DNA from: Lautropia sp. SCN 69-89
GTDB lineage: Bacteria > Pseudomonadota > Gammaproteobacteria > Burkholderiales > Burkholderiaceae_E
Direction of reading: 5' to 3'
Assembly (NCBI GenBank): GCA_001724855.1
Contig: MEED01000002.1
Span: 1 to 64,000 of the forward strand
Length of the DNA: 64,000 nt
Under the pieces are notes generated by a model that worked only from the letters and a program-made list of their open reading frames with translations, was not told the DNA's origin and made no database searches. This document shows positions 604 to 9,799 of the stretch, piece by piece (the stretch's first letter is position 1; every line of letters begins with the position of its first letter). Both the position numbers and the translations under genes were made by a program.

Positions 604-3600
604 ATGCGCTCCGACCCGATGCCTCGCAACGAACGCAGCGACGAGCTCGAGGGCATCGCCGGCACCGCAGCCGCGCCTGCCCGCCCCGCCCTTCCCGAAC
701 CGCTGCGCGAACGCTGGCAGCCGCTGCGGATCGGCCTCGTCGAGCTCTTTCACTACGACAGCGAGGAGTTCTGGTTCCACGACGGCCACCTGCTGCTGCG
801 CGGGAACAACGGAACCGGCAAGTCGAAGGTGCTGTCGCTGACGCTGCCGTTCCTGTTCGATGCGCAGCTGCGCTCGTCGCGCATCGAGCCCGACGGCGAC
901 AGCAGCAAGAGGATGTCGTGGAACCTTCTCCTCGACAGCTACCCGCGACGCACCGGCTACGCCTGGATCGAGTTCGGGCGGCTCGCTGCCGACGGCTGCC
1001 CCCGCTATCTCACGCTCGGCGCGGGGCTGTCGGCGGTGGCCGGGCGGGCGCAGGTCGAGAGCTGGTTCTTCATGATCGACGACGCGGCCGATCGGGCCGA
1101 CGCAGTCGGCGCTGCGATGCGCATCGGGCGCGACCTGTGGCTCGTCAACGAGCAGCGCGTCGTGCTCGTGCGCGAGCGGCTGCGCGAAGCGATCGAAGGC
1201 CGCGGGCAGGTCTACGATAGCGCGGCAGCGTACCGGCGCGCCGTCGACGAACGCCTGTTTCACCTCGGTGCGCGCCGCTACGACGCACTGATGGACACGC
1301 TGATCCAGTTGCGGCAGCCGCAGCTCTCGCGCAAGCCCGACGAGGCGGGGCTGTCGCACGCGCTCACCGAAGCGCTGCCGCCGATGCCGCAGGAACTGCT
1401 TACCGACGTGGCCGAAGCGCTCGATCGGCTCGAGGAAGACCGCCGGCAACTCGACGAGATCAGGGAGCTTGCGCAGGCGGTCGAGCGCTTCGATCGCCGT
1501 TATCGCGTCTACGCCGGGATGCTCAGCCGCCGACAGGCGCGCGAGTTGCGCGAGGCGCAGACCGACTTCGACAACGCGAGCCAGGAGCGCAATCGAGCGC
1601 AGGCGAGCCTGCAGGCCGCGCAGGCTGCGCAGGTGCAGGCGCAGGTCGCGCACGACGGGGCCGAACGCGCCCTCGCGGCGCGGCGCAGTCGGCAGGAAAC
1701 GCTGCAGTCCGATCCCACGATGCAGGATTCCAACCGGCTCGAGGGCGCACAGCGCGACGCCGAACTCCGCAGTGCTGCCGTGGAGCGCGAGCGCCAGTCC
1801 CGTGACGATGCAGCCGAGCGCCTGCAACGCGAGCGGGAGGCGACCGCCCATGCCGATCAGCGGGCGACGGAGGCCGAGCGCGCGCTGATCGGGAAACGTT
1901 GCGAAAGTGCGCGCGAAGCGGACGACGCAGGCGTCGGCGCCGAATTCGCGGCCAACGCACTGTGCGTGCTTGCGCCCGGCGCGCTCGCGGAACTCTCATC
2001 GCGCGAGTTCGACACGGCGGCTGCGGCGCTGCGCGCCAGCGCATCCGCGCGACGCGAGCAGATCGCGGTGCTGCAGCGCCGTCACGATGAGCTGCGCCAG
2101 GCCACCTCGGTGCTCACGCTTCGCCGTCAGGGGCAGAGCGAGCGCCATGCCGAGCTCGAAGGGACGCTCGAGCGCCGCGACGCGGTCGATGCCGCGGTCG
2201 AGTGCGCAGCGCAGGCGCTCGTCGACGACTGGACTTCGCATTGCGCCCGGCTGGTCGAGCTGCGCTTCGAGAGCGCCGAACCGCTCGGACTGCTCGTCGA
2301 GTGGCTGCAGCGCCCAGAGGGCGAGAACCCTGCGCGGCGCGCGCTCGCCGAAGCGCAGCGCGGCGCCGGCGAGCGTCACGCGGCGCGGCAGGTCGAGCTC
2401 GGCGTGCAACGCGACACGTTGCGCGCCGAACGCGATGCGCTCGAAGCCGAGCGCGAGCGCCTGAACGCCGGCGCCAACAGCGCCCCGCCCGCACCGCGCA
2501 CGCGCGACCCCGACGCCCGTAGCACAGTCGTCGGGGCGCCGCTGTGGCAGCTGATCGACTTTCGTGAGCACGTCGCTGCAAACGGGCGCGCCGGGCTCGA
2601 AGCCGCCCTCGAGGCATCCGGCCTGCTCGACGCCTGGGTCACCCCCGATGGCGCGCGGCTTTCGGTCGAGGGCGCGCCGGTGTGGCTCGACAGCCAGTGG
2701 GTGCGCCGCCCTGCGGCGCCTGGATCGTCGCTCGCCGGCTGGTTGTGCGCGTCCGTTCCCGCCGATTCGCCGGTGCCGGCCCAGACGGTCGATGCGCTGC
2801 TAGCCGGCGTTGCCTGCGGTAGTGCAGACCCCGAGACTGCCGAAGCCTGGGTCTGCCCCGACGGGCGCTTCCGCATCGGCACGCTGGCGGGGACATGGAG
2901 CAAGCCCGAGGCGAGTCATATCGGCCACGCCGCCCGCGCCGCGGCGCGCCGCCGGCGCCTCGGGGAAATCGGCCTGCGGCTGCGCGAGCTCGACACTGCC
3001 CAGCGCGAAATGGAATCCCTCTTCGGGGAACTCGACGCGCAGCGCGCGCAGGCCCGCGACGAATGGCGCACCGCGCCCGCGGAGCAGCCGTGGCGCGAGG
3101 CGATGCTCGAAGCCGCTGCGTGCGCGCGTGAAGTGCAGGCGGCTCGCGCGCGCCTGGACGGCGCCGAGTCCCAATGCCGCGAGGCCGAGCAGAAGCAGGA
3201 GACCGCGCGCGAGGCGCTCGATCGCGACGCGAGGGACCTGCGCCTGCCCACCGAAGCCGAAGCGTTGCCCGCGATCGAGCAGGCGCTGCAGCGCTTCGTC
3301 GACGCGCAGTTCGCCCTCGTGCAGGCTGCGCACGAATGGCGCCGCGCGCACGCCGATCTTCTCGCACAGCGCTCGCGCGAAGCCGATGCCCGAAGCCAGT
3401 GGCAACTGCGCGAGGAGTCGCTCGCCGCGGCGCGCATCGAAGCCGACGAGGCGCAAGCGCGGTTCGACGTGCTGCGCGAGACCGTCGGCGCGCAAGTCGA
3501 GACGCTGCTGCGGCAACTGGCCGACGCACGCGAGGCGGTTCGCGCCGCCGACGCGGCGCTGCGAACCGCTATCGAAGCACGGCAAGCCGCCGGTGAAGCG

Positions 3601-4839
3601 CGCGCGCGCGCGAGCGCGAGGGCCGAGATCGCCGAGAACGCGCTCGACGAACGCTCGCGGCAGCGCGCGGCCGCCGTCGAACGCCTGAGGCACTTCACGC
3701 GGAGCAGCCTGCTGCACTCGGCGGTGCCCGGCATCGAAGTGCCCGATCCGGGCAGTGCGTGGACCGTGGATCCCGCGTTGACCCTCGCCCGGCGCGTCGA
3801 GCAGGCGCTCTCCGATGTCATCGACGACGAAGCGAACTGGAGCCGCACGCAGCGCCAGGTCACCGAAGACCTGCAGGAGCTGCAGCGCGCGCTGAGCGCC
3901 CTCGGCCACCAGGCACCGGCCGAGGCCACCGACTGGGGCTTCGTCGTGCGCATCGTCTATCACAATCGCGCCGAGCGGCCCGACCGCCTGGTGGCACAAC
4001 TGGCCGACGACGTCGCGCAGCGCAGCGAACTGCTCTCGGCCAGCGAGCGCGCGGTGCTGGAGAATCACCTGCAGGCCGAGATCGCCTCCGAAGTGCAGCG
4101 CCTGTTGCGCTCGGCCGAGAAGCAGGTCGAGGCGATCAACCGCGAGCTGCACAAGCGGCCGACCTCCACCGGCGTGCGCTACCGGCTGCAATGGCAACCG
4201 CTCGGCGACGACGAAGGCGCGCCGGTGGGGCTCGAAGCCGCGCGAGCGAGGCTGCTGAACACCAGCGCCGACCTGTGGTCGGCCGAGGATCGGCGCGTGG
4301 TCGGTCACATGCTGCAGCAACGCATCGCCGCCGAGCGCGAACGTGCCGACGCCGAAACCGGGCGCAGCGAGCATGGCGGCAGCCTCATCGAGCAGCTTGC
4401 GCGCGCGCTCGACTATCGCCGCTGGCATCGCTTTCGCGTGCAGCGCCTGCAGGACGGCCTGTGGCGCAAGCTCTCCGGTCCGGCGTCGAGCGGCGAGCGC
4501 GCGCTCGGCCTGACCGTGCCGCTGTTCGCCGCGATCGCGAGCTTCTACAGCCAGGGCGCCAACCCGCACACGCCGCGCCTGATGCTGCTCGACGAAGCCT
4601 TCGCCGGAATCGACGACGCGGCGCGCGCGCACTGCATGGGGCTGATTCACGAGTTCGACCTCGACTTCGTCCTCACCAGCGAGCGCGAATGGGGCTGCTA
4701 CGCCGAACTGCCCGGCGTGTCGATCTGCCAGCTGCAGCGGCGCGAGGGCATCGACGCGGTGTTCGTCTCGCGCTGGACCTGGGACGGCCGAGCGCGGCGG
4801 CGCGAGGCCGATCCGGATCGGCGGTTCGCCCCCGCATGA
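604..4839 (+). CDS. jetC: Wadjet JetC-like SMC/SbcC-type ATPase, TIGR02680 family
   Basis: A 1,411-residue SMC-like ATPase. A Walker A motif (GNNGTGKS, residues 67-74) is at the N-terminus. The ABC signature-like segment (SGPASSGERAL, about 1,290-1,300) and Walker B (LMLLDEAFAGID, about 1,326-1,338) are at the C-terminus. Between them run very long Ala/Arg/Glu/Gln-rich stretches typical of antiparallel coiled coils, broken by a central globular part around residues 640-790. This is the layout of TIGR02680, the motor of the TIGR02677-80 locus. Wadjet complexes extrude DNA loops and cleave small circular DNA such as plasmids. The gene starts 3 bases after the upstream gene and overlaps the next by ATGA, so the set is one operon. 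Confidence 0.9.
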   Translation: MRSDPMPRNERSDELEGIAGTAAAPARPALPEPLRERWQPLRIGLVELFHYDSEEFWFHDGHLLLRGNNGTGKSKVLSLTLPFLFDAQLRSSRIEPDGDSSKRMSWNLLLDSYPRRTGYAWIEFGRLAADGCPRYLTLGAGLSAVAGRAQVESWFFMIDDAADRADAVGAAMRIGRDLWLVNEQRVVLVRERLREAIEGRGQVYDSAAAYRRAVDERLFHLGARRYDALMDTLIQLRQPQLSRKPDEAGLSHALTEALPPMPQELLTDVAEALDRLEEDRRQLDEIRELAQAVERFDRRYRVYAGMLSRRQARELREAQTDFDNASQERNRAQASLQAAQAAQVQAQVAHDGAERALAARRSRQETLQSDPTMQDSNRLEGAQRDAELRSAAVERERQSRDDAAERLQREREATAHADQRATEAERALIGKRCESAREADDAGVGAEFAANALCVLAPGALAELSSREFDTAAAALRASASARREQIAVLQRRHDELRQATSVLTLRRQGQSERHAELEGTLERRDAVDAAVECAAQALVDDWTSHCARLVELRFESAEPLGLLVEWLQRPEGENPARRALAEAQRGAGERHAARQVELGVQRDTLRAERDALEAERERLNAGANSAPPAPRTRDPDARSTVVGAPLWQLIDFREHVAANGRAGLEAALEASGLLDAWVTPDGARLSVEGAPVWLDSQWVRRPAAPGSSLAGWLCASVPADSPVPAQTVDALLAGVACGSADPETAEAWVCPDGRFRIGTLAGTWSKPEASHIGHAARAAARRRRLGEIGLRLRELDTAQREMESLFGELDAQRAQARDEWRTAPAEQPWREAMLEAAACAREVQAARARLDGAESQCREAEQKQETAREALDRDARDLRLPTEAEALPAIEQALQRFVDAQFALVQAAHEWRRAHADLLAQRSREADARSQWQLREESLAAARIEADEAQARFDVLRETVGAQVETLLRQLADAREAVRAADAALRTAIEARQAAGEARARASARAEIAENALDERSRQRAAAVERLRHFTRSSLLHSAVPGIEVPDPGSAWTVDPALTLARRVEQALSDVIDDEANWSRTQRQVTEDLQELQRALSALGHQAPAEATDWGFVVRIVYHNRAERPDRLVAQLADDVAQRSELLSASERAVLENHLQAEIASEVQRLLRSAEKQVEAINRELHKRPTSTGVRYRLQWQPLGDDEGAPVGLEAARARLLNTSADLWSAEDRRVVGHMLQQRIAAERERADAETGRSEHGGSLIEQLARALDYRRWHRFRVQRLQDGLWRKLSGPASSGERALGLTVPLFAAIASFYSQGANPHTPRLMLLDEAFAGIDDAARAHCMGLIHEFDLDFVLTSEREWGCYAELPGVSICQLQRREGIDAVFVSRWTWDGRARRREADPDRRFAPA

Positions 4840-6086
4840 GCGACGCGCCGGATCCGCGGCTACAGGCGCTGCTGGGCGCCGACACGCTGGCGTCGCTGCG
4901 TGGGCGCCTGCGCGCACGCTTCGAGCGACTCGATCCGGACGAGACGCCCGCCACCCTGAACCTTGCCGGACTGAGCGCCAGCGAATACGAAGCGCTCGCG
5001 TTGCTCACCGGCGCGCCGCCGCGCCCCGTGAAATCGATGCGCATCGACCTCGCGCGACTCGACGCGACGCTGCGCGAAGCCGGAGTGGCCGCGTCGCTGC
5101 GCGACGCACTCGAACGCCTCGACGGCCCGATCGTGCATCGGGCGGCGATGCGCGCCGCAGCGCAGGCGCGCTGGTCGACCATGCCGGGAAGATGTCGGCA
5201 CAGTGGCCTTGGGGGCCTCCTTCAGGCACCGGCCGGCCTCGGCCTGCTCAAGCGCCTCGCCCGGCAGGACGCCGATCACGCGATGCGTCTGATCGAACGC
5301 ACGGAGGCCGTGCTGCAACGTCTACCGGCAAATGGCTTGCCCCGCGCGCAGCTCGCCGCCGAGACGCTGGGCGACGCGCACGCGCTCGACGCCGGCCAAG
5401 CGGTGGCCACGTTGGTACTGGCCGCCTGGCGGCAGGCGGAGCCGGGCACGATCCGGCGGGAGTCGGATCCGGCCGCCGAAGCGCCGGAGGAGCGCGCACG
5501 TGATACCTGGGCGCGAGCGGGGGTCATGGTCAACGAGCTCGCCCGGCCCGCGCTGTTCCTGAACCTGCCGGTGCAAACCCCCGAACACCGGCTCGCTGCC
5601 GACGGCGAACCCGCTTACCTGTCGCTACGCAGGCTGTTGCGTTCGCCACCTGCGTTCGATGTGGCCGCGCGTGAAGTCTTCGTCTGCGAAAACCCGAATC
5701 TGGTCGCGATCGCGGCCGACCGACTCGGTGCGCGCTGCGCTCCGCTGGTCTGCACCGACGGCATGCCGGCGGCGGCGCAGCGCATGCTGCTCGCGCAGCT
5801 CGCCAGCGCAGGGGCCGAGCTGCGTTGTCACGGCGATTTTGACTGGGCGGGCCTGCGAATCGCGAACTGGACGATCCGCAGCTTCGGCGCGCGTCCCTGG
5901 CGGCTGCGCGCCGGTGACTACGAGGCGGCAGCGACAGGCGCGCCGCAACTGCGTCGCGACCTCGATGACGGACCAGCGGTGGCGGCGATCTGGGACGAAA
6001 CGTTGGCCCCGGCGATGGCGCGGCACGGCGTGAGCATCGCCGAAGAAGCCGTCGCGGCGTCACTGCTCGCCGATCTTCGCCGATAA
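4836..6086 (+). CDS. jetD: Wadjet JetD-like Toprim nuclease, TIGR02679/DUF2399 family
   Basis: A 416-residue protein with a C-terminal Toprim-like fold: the acidic Glu at about residue 285 (VFVCENPNLVAIA) and the DxD pair at about 334/336 (CHGDFDWAGLRI). These match DUF2399/TIGR02679, fourth gene of the TIGR02677-80 locus. In characterised Wadjet systems JetD is the topoisomerase VI/Spo11-like nuclease that cuts the DNA after JetABC loop extrusion. The ATG at 4836 overlaps the jetC stop as ATGA, which supports this start and translational coupling. Catalytic residues look intact, so the effector is probably functional. Confidence 0.88.
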   Translation: MSDAPDPRLQALLGADTLASLRGRLRARFERLDPDETPATLNLAGLSASEYEALALLTGAPPRPVKSMRIDLARLDATLREAGVAASLRDALERLDGPIVHRAAMRAAAQARWSTMPGRCRHSGLGGLLQAPAGLGLLKRLARQDADHAMRLIERTEAVLQRLPANGLPRAQLAAETLGDAHALDAGQAVATLVLAAWRQAEPGTIRRESDPAAEAPEERARDTWARAGVMVNELARPALFLNLPVQTPEHRLAADGEPAYLSLRRLLRSPPAFDVAAREVFVCENPNLVAIAADRLGARCAPLVCTDGMPAAAQRMLLAQLASAGAELRCHGDFDWAGLRIANWTIRSFGARPWRLRAGDYEAAATGAPQLRRDLDDGPAVAAIWDETLAPAMARHGVSIAEEAVAASLLADLRR

Positions 6087-6204
6087 AAGCGGCGCCGCTG
6101 CGGCAGCGACGCCCGGTGCCCTACCCGTTCGTCTGCGTCGCCAGTGATCAGGTGCGTATTCCGGCGCAACGTGACCGGGCAATCCGGCGCATCGTGCGAA
6201 TGCG

Positions 6205-6552
6205 CTATGCAGCTCGGAGCAAGAACTCGACCTTGACTGCGTCATAGGGGAAGACAATTCCTCCCCCCTCCGCACGGTCGAGTACTCCGGCGCTGAGCAA
6301 CGCAGTGACGTCGTCGTGAACCGACTTGACGTCCCTGTTGACGCGACGAGCAGCTTCGCGGATGGAGACGGGACCCGCACCACAAAGCGCCTTCAGGAGT
6401 TCCCAGCGCTTGGCCGTGAGCACCTTCCACAGAAGCTCTGGCGTCGCGAAGCTGATTCGAGCAGACCGTTCTGGCTTGCCGGTGCGCCACGCGCGTGCGA
6501 AGTCAGCCATGGATTCACCGGCCTCGCGAACCTCGAGAGTCACTGTTTTCAC
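6205..6552 (-). CDS. TumA-like antitoxin / winged-helix DNA-binding protein (HVO_A0114 family)
   Basis: A 115-residue protein read from a GTG at 6552, preceded by a good Shine-Dalgarno (GAGGTGG, 5 bases away). The C-terminal half is a winged-helix unit (LLKALCGAGPVSIREAARRV, then RDVKSVHDDVTALLSAGVLD and a PYD-containing wing), typical of the HVO_A0114/MarR-like proteins paired with TumE toxins. The TumE-like gene lies directly upstream on the same strand and overlaps it by 38 bases. The likely role is toxin neutralisation and autoregulation. The pair is convergent with the Wadjet operon and looks less GC-rich than its neighbours, which suggests acquisition. Confidence 0.75.
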   Translation of the reverse strand: MKTVTLEVREAGESMADFARAWRTGKPERSARISFATPELLWKVLTAKRWELLKALCGAGPVSIREAARRVNRDVKSVHDDVTALLSAGVLDRAEGGGIVFPYDAVKVEFLLRAA

Positions 6553-6733
6553 GCTTCCACCTCGCGATATCGCGCTCGAAGGCTGCGAGAAGTGCCTCCG
6601 GCGTAGTGAAGGAGTAGGCAGATTCCTTGTCCCCGAAGTGACGATGATCACCCTTGGCGACTTCGTTGTCGTAGCGGACCACGCAGACATCGTCGACGAC
6701 GTAAGCAAGGCGGTACTTGAATGCCAACACCAT
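6515..6733 (-). CDS. TumE-like toxin (DUF6516 family), N-terminally short
   Basis: A 72-residue ORF whose body (FKYRLAYVVDDVCVVRYDNE, then KGDHRHFGD and a TTPEALLAAFERDIARW helix) is the conserved core of TumE-type toxins. Known members usually carry about 30 more residues before the KYRLAYV block. Here an in-frame TGA (6743-6745) lies just three codons before the only ATG, so the family N-terminus is absent. Either this is a 5'-truncated remnant or a short variant. The partner antitoxin-like gene follows with overlap, as expected for this type II-like module. Confidence 0.6.
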   Translation of the reverse strand: MVLAFKYRLAYVVDDVCVVRYDNEVAKGDHRHFGDKESAYSFTTPEALLAAFERDIARWKRENSDSRGSRGR

Positions 6734-6854
6734 CGTCTGTTGTCAATGACGCCAACAGTAGCGGCGATTGGGATGCCTGACGTGATCTGGTCCGGACCCA
6801 GCGCCCGTCGCACCCGGGGCGCCATGTCGCACGACAGGCTCATCCCCTGAGCCT

Positions 6855-6884
6855 GTTGTCGATCAGACTGTGTTCATCGACAAC
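6855..6884. promoter_or_regulatory. 9-bp perfect inverted repeat, possible operator
   Basis: GTTGTCGAT (6855-6863) and ATCGACAAC (6876-6884) form a perfect 9-bp inverted repeat with a 12-base spacer. It lies between the divergent TumE-like gene and the macrodomain-like gene starting at 6964. The position suits an operator for a dimeric regulator such as the TumA-like protein; no binding data exist. Confidence 0.45.
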
Positions 6885-6901
6885 CGTCCTGCGTGGCGCC
6901 G

Positions 6902-6919
6902 GCACCCCCTTGGGGGTGC
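6902..6919 (+). other. short GC hairpin in the leader of the 6964 gene
   Basis: GCACCCCC-TT-GGGGGTGC is an 8-bp perfect palindromic stem with a two-base centre, 44 bases before the ATG at 6964. It has no T-tract, so it is not a standard intrinsic terminator. It could be an mRNA leader structure or a protein-binding site. Confidence 0.35.
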
Positions 6920-6963
6920 GGTGCCGACGAGCGGGCGGAACGCAACGAGCGATGAGGCCAAGC

Positions 6964-7977
6964 ATGAACTGGTTCGAGGAACTGACGGGATTCCCGGAGC
7001 CCGACTACGCCACCGTTCGCGAGCGGCTTGACGTCGACGGCCACGACCTGGTCGTCCGGGGCAGCAGCCGCCGCTACGGCATCGGCGAACTGGAGCTGGT
7101 GTCCCTGGGCGAGTTGCGCGAGCGGGCGGTGCAACCGGGCGGCGGGCCCGGGCGTGCCCGCGTGCGCATCGCCAAGGGCGAGGTGCGGCAGATGCACCGC
7201 CAGCCGCAGTACGCCGGCGCCCTCTTCCAGGTCGCGTCGCAGTTCAACCTGCTGGAGATGGTCTCGCCCGATGTGACACCCGAAGACGGCGTGACGCGTT
7301 ACCTGCACGACGGCACGCAGGGGCCGGCCTGCGCGATCGCCGCCGGCGCCGCGACGATCTACCGCAACTACCTGGTGCCCGTCGGCGACGGCGTCGGCCA
7401 GACCCGCGATCGCCAACTCGACGGCCTGGCGGACCTGGGTGAGGCGCTGTCGGCCGCGCTCGGCGTGCCCGTCTCCCGGCTGTGGACCATGCGCAACGGC
7501 TATGCCCTGCCCACCGAGCACGGTCTGGAGCTCATCGGGCGGCACCTGCACGCGCTGGACGAAGCGGGCCGCGACGCCCTGCGCTCGAAGTTGCGCATCG
7601 GCATGCACTGGCAGGTGGAGGTCACCGACCGCACCGCGCCGCCACGCCCGAAGGTGTCGCAGGCGTTCTGCTCGGCGCTGCCCGTGACGTACACGCGCAT
7701 TCCCGGCCACCGCTGGGAGCCCTTCGCGCGCCTCGTGCTCGAAGCCGCCTACGAGGCCACCTTGCTGGCCGCGGCATTGCATCCGGCACGCGGCGGCACG
7801 AACGTCGTCGCGCTCACGCGCCTGGGCGGAGGTGCATTCGGCAACGACGACCCGTGGATCGACACTGCCATCGAGCGGGCTCTGGGCATCGCGAGCCGGT
7901 TCGACCTCGACGTGCACATCGTGACCCGGAGCCAGCCGTCGCCCGCCCTGCTCGCCTTGGCGCAAGCCTTCCCATGA
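6964..7977 (+). CDS. conserved uncharacterised protein, possible macrodomain-like fold
   Basis: A 337-residue soluble protein with no signal peptide or membrane segment. Two blocks look like conserved family cores: GALFQVASQFNLLEM...TPEDGVTRYLHD followed by TQGPACAIAAGAATIYRNY (about residues 85-140), and near the C-terminus TNVVALTRLGGGAFGNDDPW with a following helix (about 280-310). The second block resembles the phosphate-binding GxG loop and last helix of macrodomains, so ADP-ribose or NAD-derivative binding is a guess. I do not recognise a characterised member. It is first of three closely spaced co-directional genes next to Wadjet, with a TY-Chap protein 23 bases downstream. ATG 6964 was chosen because the ORF upstream of it runs through the hairpin leader. 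Confidence 0.7.
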   Translation: MNWFEELTGFPEPDYATVRERLDVDGHDLVVRGSSRRYGIGELELVSLGELRERAVQPGGGPGRARVRIAKGEVRQMHRQPQYAGALFQVASQFNLLEMVSPDVTPEDGVTRYLHDGTQGPACAIAAGAATIYRNYLVPVGDGVGQTRDRQLDGLADLGEALSAALGVPVSRLWTMRNGYALPTEHGLELIGRHLHALDEAGRDALRSKLRIGMHWQVEVTDRTAPPRPKVSQAFCSALPVTYTRIPGHRWEPFARLVLEAAYEATLLAAALHPARGGTNVVALTRLGGGAFGNDDPWIDTAIERALGIASRFDLDVHIVTRSQPSPALLALAQAFP

Positions 7978-8000
7978 TCGCCCCCTGAAGGAGCCCACGC

Positions 8001-8963
8001 ATGGCACCCATCGACCAACAATCCGTGTCGGCACCTGTGAGCGTGCCACCCAAGCGGTCGGCCGACTGGCCGGCGTTCGCGCAGCGGCTGGCGAGCGTCC
8101 TCGGTGCCCTGCAGGAAGACCAGTACCTCGTCGTCTCCCTCAAGGGGACGGATCGCTACGTCCAGTTCGCCGCCCAAGGTCACTGGGGACTGCGCGCAGA
8201 GTGCGTGAGCAACGAATACCTGTCCGGCCCCGAGCGGCTGGATGAGCGCCAGCTCGCCCGGCTGCGGGACCTGGGCTGGCACGATCCGACCGGCTCGGCG
8301 CCGGAGTCGACGCCCGAGTGTGACCCCGATGGCAGCCCCAATCACTTCGTCGAATGGCCCGCAAAGACCGCGCTCGTCGGCCTGGCGGACCTGGCCGTGA
8401 CCACGCTGGTCGACGTGCTGGGCGTCGCGCACCCGGGTTTCCTGGAGTACAAGGCCTTCGACTCGCAGGAGCAGACGCTGGTCTTCGACGAGCTGGGCCT
8501 GCGGCGCGTCGCGCCGCCCACCGGGGCTGATGTCGTTGCCGACCTCGAGCACCGGCTGCTGGCGACGGTGCGCGAAACCACCGGCCTGGGCAGCCTGGAG
8601 TACGACGACGACCGCGACATCGGTTTCGTCCATGGGCGCATCGGCGTGCTGACCAGCCTCGTCGGCAACCCGGTACGCGTGCGCCTGCGCGCGCTGATGT
8701 TGACCGACCTCGAGGGCGCACCCGCACTGCTCGAACGACTGAACCACTTCAATGCAGGACTGGGGTCGATGCACCTGTTCTTTCATCGCGGCGCAGTCCG
8801 GGCGGTTTCCGACGTTCCCGCGTGGCCGTTCGTGCCCGAGCACGTCGAGCGCGCGCTCGAGGAGTTCTGCCAGATCTGCGACGCTCTGAACGACCTGCTG
8901 CAGGCCGAGTTCGGTGGCGATTCCCTGGTGAATGAAGAGACGCCGAGCGTCACGCGGCATTGA
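8001..8963 (+). CDS. TY-Chap (YbjN/CesT-like) chaperone-domain protein
   Basis: A 320-residue protein that appears to have two alpha/beta chaperone-like domains. The N-terminal part (EDQYLVVSLKGTDRYVQFAA to ARLRDLGWHDP, about residues 30-95) matches the TY-Chap N-terminal pattern. The C-terminal part (IGVLTSLVGNPVRVRLRALM to ALEEFCQICDALNDLLQAEF) is YbjN/T3SS-chaperone-like. TY-Chap proteins have been noted in bacterial conflict systems, where they are thought to bind peptides of effectors. Its place between a macrodomain-like protein and a phosphatase suggests it is the client-binding element of a three-protein unit. Family assignment is from pattern recognition, not a search. Confidence 0.68.
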   Translation: MAPIDQQSVSAPVSVPPKRSADWPAFAQRLASVLGALQEDQYLVVSLKGTDRYVQFAAQGHWGLRAECVSNEYLSGPERLDERQLARLRDLGWHDPTGSAPESTPECDPDGSPNHFVEWPAKTALVGLADLAVTTLVDVLGVAHPGFLEYKAFDSQEQTLVFDELGLRRVAPPTGADVVADLEHRLLATVRETTGLGSLEYDDDRDIGFVHGRIGVLTSLVGNPVRVRLRALMLTDLEGAPALLERLNHFNAGLGSMHLFFHRGAVRAVSDVPAWPFVPEHVERALEEFCQICDALNDLLQAEFGGDSLVNEETPSVTRH

Positions 8964-9025
8964 GTGCGCTCGGTTCAATCGATACACGGCGGCGCGCCGT
9001 GACCCTGCGGGAGGAAAATTGCTCC

Positions 9026-9613
9026 ATGACCACGCTTGCCCCACGAACGAGCCTGACCGATCCGCTTCGCATCGCCGAGTTGCCCGTGGCAGCCGCCGGT
9101 GGGATGGTCGGGGTGACCTTCTGCCCCGGCAAGCGCGGCGACAGCGTATTCGGTCGCCCGTGGGCGCGCGACCTCGACGCCGACCTGGACGTCGTGCAGC
9201 GCTGGGGCGCGCGCGCGGTGCTGACGCTGATCGAGGAGCACGAAATGAGACTCCTCGGTGTGCCGGATCTCGGCCAACCCATCGCGAGCCGCGGCATCGA
9301 CTGGCATCACCTGCCGATCGTGGACGTCACCGCGCCAGGCCCTTCGTTCGAGCAAGCGTGGCTCGTGGCAGGGCGAACGGCCGTCGACGCTCTGATGCAG
9401 GGCGGCAAGGTGCTCGTGCATTGCCGAGGTGGACTCGGACGTGCGGGTACGGTGGCCGCGTGCCTGCTCGTCGAGTTCGGCGTCGCGCCGAGCGAGGCGA
9501 TACGGCAGGTTCGCATCGCCCGGCCTGGGGCGATCGAGACAAGCGAGCAGGAGCGGTACGTCATGGCATACCGGCAGCGGTTCCGGCCCTTGGTCGACGA
9601 GCAGATCAGTTAG
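9026..9613 (+). CDS. dual-specificity / tyrosine-type protein phosphatase (CDKN3-like)
   Basis: A 195-residue cysteine phosphatase. The catalytic P-loop HCRGGLGRAGT lies at residues 132-142 (Cys133 nucleophile, Arg139), matching HCx5R. The general-acid Asp is probably in the VDVTAPGPSF loop about 25 residues earlier. The start at 9026 follows a strong Shine-Dalgarno (GGGAGGAAAA at 9009-9018). It is the third gene of the 6964-9613 set (62 bases after the TY-Chap gene). The substrate could be a phosphoprotein or a phosphorylated nucleotide or ribose. Its stop codon is directly followed, in the same frame, by a ParD antitoxin fragment. Confidence 0.82.
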   Translation: MTTLAPRTSLTDPLRIAELPVAAAGGMVGVTFCPGKRGDSVFGRPWARDLDADLDVVQRWGARAVLTLIEEHEMRLLGVPDLGQPIASRGIDWHHLPIVDVTAPGPSFEQAWLVAGRTAVDALMQGGKVLVHCRGGLGRAGTVAACLLVEFGVAPSEAIRQVRIARPGAIETSEQERYVMAYRQRFRPLVDEQIS

Positions 9614-9799
9614 CGCGGCCACGGCACCAGCAGCGAGTACGTGCGCGAACTCATCCGGCGCGATCAGGATCGGCTGCAACTGCGCAGCCTGTTGCTCGGC
9701 GGCGCTTCGTCCGCGCCCACTGCGCCCGTGAACGAGCCCTGCTTCGAGAGCCTGCGCAAGCGCGTGCGCGACGAGATCAAGTCGCGACGCAAGTCCTGA
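9614..9799 (+). pseudogene. ParD-family antitoxin remnant (N-terminal RHH strand missing)
   Basis: The 61 codons right after the phosphatase stop, in the same frame, read RGHGTSSEYVRELIRRDQDR and then LLLGGASSAP...PCFESLRKRVRDE up to TGA 9797-9799. This is the second helix and C-terminal toxin-binding tail of a ParD/CopG antitoxin. The first beta-strand and helix are absent, no start codon lies in the right place, and no ParE toxin gene follows. It is best read as a decayed toxin-antitoxin module cut at its 5' end by the event that placed the phosphatase gene here. Confidence 0.75.

Follow-up and report, generated by a model that had tools for sequence, protein, structure and literature searches.

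Three co-directional genes and the relatives of two of them

The window analysed here is a stretch of 64,000 nucleotides (nt) from Lautropia sp. SCN 69-89 (Burkholderiales; positions 1 to 64,000 of contig MEED01000002.1), and its left end carries, beside Wadjet defence genes, a run of three open, co-directional genes referred to as A, B and C, separated by gaps of 23 nt (A/B) and 62 nt (B/C), as a first-pass annotation of the sequence had reported. The balance of the results described below tips towards A-B-C being an ADP-ribose-deconjugation conflict module of the ADP-ribosylglycohydrolase (ARG) type, in which a new PARG-fold macrodomain protein, A, would replace ARG. The features of this run are as follows.

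6964-7977, + strand: gene A, 337 amino acids (aa), ATG at 6964
7825-7845, + strand: loop GGGAFGN at residues 288-294 of A, opposite the loop GAWGCGVFRND of bacterial PARG in the profile alignment
8001-8963, + strand: gene B, open reading frame of 320 aa
9026-9613, + strand: gene C, 195 aa, ATG at 9026, preceded by GAGGAA

The first-pass identification of B as a TY-Chap protein and C as a CDKN3-like phosphatase is borne out by Pfam. B consists of a TY-Chap3 domain (residues 22-148, 2e-29) followed by a TY-Chap1 domain (181-308, 7e-23), both above the cut-offs. C scores above the cut-offs for PTP-SAK, Tc-R-P, CDKN3, DSPc and Y_phosphatase, and the motif HCRGGLGR, also noticed at first pass, is its HC(X)5R catalytic motif, with the cysteine at residue 133; a DNA pattern for HCRGGLG has a single match in the genome, gene C itself. 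None of A, B and C matched a PADLOC model at E≤0.1.

Relatives of C lead repeatedly to ARG. Matches to C at E≤1e-15 were found in 48 of 398 genomes, with at least 43% identity over most of the length in eight of them, the Lautropia genome included; in genome G154 a 45% match covers part of the length. Twelve relatives at this level of identity (≥43%) were fetched (L033-L036, L039 and L068-L074). In five, ARG is either fused to the phosphatase (L034, L068, L072) or encoded by an overlapping gene (L035, L039), another C-terminal domain is present in two (L036, L069), and no ARG or other domain was found for the remaining five (L033, L070, L071, L073, L074), the last four being checked within about 1.5 kb only. 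Two further relatives, H65 and H66, are annotated as ARG proteins. L036 was considered as an ARG partner and not counted, its nearby draG lying on the opposite strand, although it is marked as ARG in the phosphatase tree described below. In L036 (5935-7212) and L096 (3839-5404), the C-type phosphatase continues into a C-terminal domain which, judged by eye, resembles a kinase; this part has no Pfam match in L036. ARG itself (PF03747) has no match in the Lautropia genome, the assembly of which is 95.6% complete; the same search was positive in five of 14 control genomes.

The only relative of B at E≤0.001 among 72,556 plasmids (L032) is 43% identical, has the same TY-Chap3+TY-Chap1 architecture and adjoins an HD_4 gene on the opposite strand. 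TY-Chap3 scored above its cut-off in one of the 398 genomes, that of Lautropia, and B used as a single query found nothing among viral contigs.

The predicted fold of protein A

Protein A falls outside the families of Pfam, NCBIfam and PADLOC and matches neither PARG_cat_microb (PF10021) nor Macro; a single member of 20 in its own family matches Pfam Macro, and at E 0.14 only. The first-pass description of A as macrodomain-like, with a suggestion that its structure be predicted, is strongly supported by an AlphaFold2 model built from ten sequences (mean pLDDT 83.5, pTM 0.88). In a Foldseek comparison with the PDB, all 13 matches at E≤0.001 are bacterial PARG proteins, from Deinococcus radiodurans or Thermomonospora curvata, with a probability of 1.00, an identity of 12-14% and template-modelling (TM) scores normalized by target of 0.46-0.56. 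The weaker matches are to other macrodomains (evolved AF1521, rubella, PARP14, E. coli and alphaviruses), with two mitoribosomal entries intermixed.

At the GGGAFGN loop, sequence comparison agrees with the fold. When the profile of A was aligned with ten PARG proteins by hhalign, LGGGAFGN fell opposite LGAWGCGVFRND. In one run none of 300 column shuffles reached the score of the alignment; in another, with a score of 37.4 and an hhalign probability of 45%, none of 500 did, and decoys scored 13.9 (PTP profile) and 22.5 (reversed PARG). A shares with bacterial PARG (PF10021; 5zdb, 3sig) both the predicted overall fold and the G-x-G-x-F of loop 2. Searches of PDB sequences are suggestive only: no match came from a profile of 15 A proteins, one with distant members added found 22 sequences, all at E≥0.3, of which 16 are macrodomains, and three of the seven found by a 20-member profile are macrodomains. 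On this modelled evidence, A almost certainly adopts a PARG-type macrodomain fold.

The family of A is more than a chance observation, because 33 columns are invariant across 20 diverse members. In the loop, G288-G290, F292 and N294 are invariant and G293 nearly so; ASQFN, E98, D116-x-TQGP, R134 and Y136 are also invariant. The family tree resolves poorly. The closest structures in BFVD are three giant-virus proteins, 30-34% identical to A, with TM scores by query of 0.81-0.83; these uncharacterised proteins of Yasminevirus and Bodo saltans virus probably belong to the same family, but are larger (526-873 aa). Identity of A with ARPP of the systems published in 2022 was considered and rejected, ARPP being a beta-meander/beta-barrel protein according to that paper (PMC9503650) and A having a predicted PARG fold. 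In PHROGs, one of the 20 family members matches 'endolysin' at 2e-4.

Neighbours and distribution of the A family

The neighbours of A were examined at 34 loci, near-duplicates included (the window, L002-L007, L018-L021, L026-L029, L044-L047, L099-L106 and L107-L113); L026-L029 and L044-L047 are plasmid loci, and L022-L025, where only fragments are present, were not judged. Relatives of C, B and ARG were called by single-sequence searches, which distant phosphatases would escape. A PTP gene lies in the same tight run as A at five of the 34 loci, the window included. In the other four it ends directly before A, at a distance of 25 nt (L004), 34 nt (L005), 25 nt (L006) or 16 nt (L099), whereas the order in the window is A, B, C. 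The phosphatase of L099 shares 49% identity with C, and that of L004 32% over 112 residues. In a tree built from 35 phosphatases, the PTPs linked to A, including C, occupy three separate branches, corresponding to three changes, at least two of which are forced by the starred branches.

At L019, the only one of the 34 loci with an HD gene, A overlaps an HD_4 phosphohydrolase gene by 4 nt; upstream lie genes for a SNF2 helicase and for a protein whose PLD-like match falls slightly under the Pfam cut-off. A PARG enzyme and an HD phosphatase share one operon in Deinococcus as well (DRB0100-DRB0098; PMC11833690), which, unlike A-B-C, includes an RNA/DNA ligase and a kinase domain and for which the discussion of that paper names no TY-Chap or PTP. 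PADLOC was run around A in the window and at three loci chosen by eye; it detected IetAS at L113, HKD and Snf2 at L099, and the SNF2 helicase with a ZacB-like protein at L019.

A is present in seven of 398 genomes of its own phylum (Lautropia included; two hold fragments only), at six loci of the species collection in a short-pattern search, and, in the phylum of a planctomycete carrier, in eight of 294 genomes (the carrier included), five of which represent a distant clade. This clade (L051-L055) has the motifs Q(V/A)ASQFN(C/G)LE, DxTQGPRA and IGGGVF-N, and no B, C or ARG relative was found beside its A genes.

Plasmids are the richest source, with relatives of A on 328 records, mostly named 'hypothetical protein' among the matches listed; 253 are from Klebsiella and 58 from Escherichia by first name, and 281 of the 328 are typed as conjugative. 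No B, C or ARG relative was found at the eight plasmid loci examined. The six Enterobacteriaceae plasmids that were opened are all IncF; on L028 and L045-L047 A lies near repA, in three of these four between the traI/traX end and repA. On a Klebsiella plasmid (L026, 6982-8993), a gene for another chaperone, with a DnaJ domain, lies 101 nt before A; such a J-domain neighbour is rare and was rejected as a rule for Klebsiella plasmids, since a query spanning both genes is covered to 80% or more in five of 299 records. On a Caballeronia plasmid (L029, 7995-12855), A lies within about 4 kb of genes for a putative molybdenum carrier protein, a Sir2 family protein and a WYL protein.

None of 50,697 phage records contains A. 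As a single query, A found no viral contig; with a broad alignment, eight viral-contig loci appear, among which the pairs L101/L104 and L102/L103 look alike. L102 and L103 resemble a T4-like phage. The contig of L105, where the A domain forms part of a 619-aa protein (4401-6260), looks like that of a giant virus, with ribonucleotide-reductase-like and collagen-like genes nearby.

The proposed module, its alternatives and its surroundings

The first-pass annotation knew of no described system with this composition, which was too strong a statement. According to Iyer et al. (2022; PMC9503650), ARG-centred operons combine rhodanese-type phosphatases (alternatively calcineurin, HD or HAD) with TY-Chap1/2/3 and occasionally Macro/NADAR; they are predicted to reverse viral ADP-ribosylation of host molecules, the TY-Chaps being proposed to bind clients and ARG being taken to act on macromolecules. 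A phosphatase is found in a little over 55% of these systems, and a WYL or Nudix helix-turn-helix (HTH) regulator in over 42%. A-B-C similarly places a rhodanese-type phosphatase and a TY-Chap protein in a gene run with a candidate ADP-ribose hydrolase, and differs in the PARG-fold A standing in the place of ARG, for which the genome has no match. The logic of reversing ADP-ribosylation is therefore already published; the new part is a PARG-fold family absent from Pfam that would replace ARG. No other publication with the A-B-C composition appeared among the literature matches listed, and the supplements of PMC9503650 might list A.

The reading of A-B-C as an ARG-type module draws on the predicted PARG fold of A, on the ARG-linked relatives of C and on the TY-Chap3 and TY-Chap1 domains of B, as in ARG systems. 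It is further supported by the A-linked phosphatases on three separate branches of the tree, by the HD_4 overlap at L019, because HD phosphatases are alternative partners in the ARG systems described in PMC9503650, and by the defence genes near A (Wadjet, IetAS, HKD with Snf2, the SNF2 helicase and the ZacB-like protein). Joint action of the three genes is reasonably probable. A host protein or RNA would be tagged by an ADP-ribosyltransferase of a phage or toxin, B would hold this client, and A would cleave off (or perhaps only bind) its ADP-ribose. C would take the phosphate off whatever is released or arises by breakdown (ADP-ribose or ribose phosphate) and so clear it. Phage-made ADP-ribosylation, as opposed to a toxin or a small signal, has about an even chance of being the target. 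Of the first-pass proposal that the set handles ADP-ribose with a client-presenting TY-Chap protein, the link to ADP-ribose gains support from the neighbours of C relatives and of some A relatives, and the mechanism is close to that already published.

Several observations weigh against this reading. In the comparisons with PARG, the TM scores of A by query are only 0.39-0.44 and the root-mean-square deviation is 7.5-8.7; the hhalign probability of the loop match is low (37-45%), and N-terminal to loop 2 the profile comparison gives no support, 226 of 300 shuffles scoring as high. The A alignments lack the GGG..AQEE (QEE) catalytic motif of PARG, and the A loop matching AQEE (residues 94-112) is modelled at low confidence; all ten PARG rows have GGG and AQEE, but were chosen by the pattern A[QR][EV]E, locus L038 being excluded for lacking it. 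Given this absence and the invariance of other residues, A may be a hydrolase with different catalytic residues or an ADP-ribose binder. No C, B or ARG relative was found at the remaining 29 of the 34 A loci, L019 among them, and no B relative at the 33 other than the window. TY-Chap3 was found in none of 19 other A-carrying genomes, some of which hold a distant or partial A only, and in no control genome either, the same model matching the Lautropia genome. A fixed three-gene system is not supported: in the survey of co-occurrence proposed at first pass, the A-phosphatase pair recurs at four of the 33 other A loci and the trio nowhere. Among the four proteins nearest to A (57-60% identical), three are encoded by solitary genes (L002, L018, L003), L002 sharing its genome with L039, and the fourth (L099, 58%) has the phosphatase. 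The A copies of L099 and G652 contain an in-frame stop. The one flanking regulator-like gene scanned, upstream of A, encodes an HVO_A0114 protein, neither WYL nor Nudix; no WYL or Nudix regulator or restriction endonuclease effector was recognised beside A-B-C, the genome not having been searched with WYL or Nudix models.

Among the alternatives, the best placed, though still unlikely, is that the module targets a small diffusible ADP-ribose derivative, such as ADP-ribose 1''-phosphate or a cyclic ADP-ribose signal, which A would hydrolyse or sense and C dephosphorylate, a lone A on plasmids or phages serving as counter-defence against such signals. The plasmid records, the partnerless A genes at the eight plasmid loci examined and the giant-virus relatives agree with this, as do the contigs L102 and L103, which look T4-like, and a phosphatase partner would suit a phosphorylated small molecule. 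The argument parallels that made for phage Macro proteins in PMC9503650. A predicted peptide-binding chaperone such as B would, however, have no obvious use, and relatives of C pair with ARG, the enzyme taken there to act on macromolecules. A serious rival, if a somewhat less likely one, is immunity to ADP-ribosylating antibacterial toxins of rival bacteria and not to phage, since bacterial PARGs reverse 2'-OH ADP-ribosylation of RNA and protect from such a toxin, according to PMC11833690; the defence neighbours (Wadjet, IetAS, Snf2) point instead to mobile elements, and no secretion gene was noticed beside A-B-C in a scan of some of its neighbours. It is improbable that the genes are chance neighbours, B-C being the remnant of an ARG system minus ARG and A a separate mobile gene landed alongside: the uniqueness of the trio, the mostly partnerless A at the loci examined, and the toxin-antitoxin-like gene and apparent antitoxin remnant on the flanks, marking a place that gathers genes, speak for it, and the compact arrangement of three open, co-directional genes, the recurrence of A-PTP pairs on three PTP branches and the third-position G+C of 0.91 (A), 0.85 (B) and 0.83 (C), weak evidence as neighbouring genes are similar, speak against it.

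Besides the ARG-type module reading, A may be the founder of a novel family of ADP-ribose hydrolases that have the PARG fold but other catalytic residues (candidates E98 and D116) and serve both sides of conflicts, a reading that we hold at somewhat less than even. If this were so, host islands would use A with a phosphatase and a chaperone against phage ADP-ribosylation, and conjugative plasmids, T4-like phages and giant viruses would use a lone A against host immunity based on ADP-ribose. A adds to ADP-ribose biology a macrodomain family, and A-B-C is a compact operon in which the 2022 anti-ADP-ribosylation proposal could be tried in the laboratory.

Outside the module, two further features were recorded.

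604-6086, + strand: Wadjet genes JetC (604-4839) and JetD (4836-6086), detected by PADLOC
6892-6929, + strand: long, GC-rich, very stable hairpin, 34 nt upstream of A, from a single-strand fold of 6881-6940

Wadjet had been placed on the left at first pass; PADLOC agrees, though the locus is truncated, the window beginning at the contig start, and before JetC a DUF2398 gene survives only as its C-terminal part (151-600). Among the identified neighbours (Wadjet, the HTH gene and A-C) there is no ADP-ribosyltransferase or sirtuin, no search having been aimed at either. The hairpin region folds at -39.9 kcal/mol, as a single strand and with no shuffle baseline; its 19-nt core occurs at a single place in the window, where both strands match, which makes it a near-palindrome. 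At a guess, it is a candidate terminator of upstream transcription or an operator; a promoter scan gave no matches. The upstream HVO_A0114 protein is encoded by a 212-aa open reading frame (6205-6843, - strand) with the HTH domain in its C-terminal part. Directly behind gene C, an open stretch of 61 codons (9614-9799, + strand), with no Pfam match, contains GTSSEYVRELIRRDQDRLQLRSLLLGG and resembles the C-terminal end of a ParD-type antitoxin.

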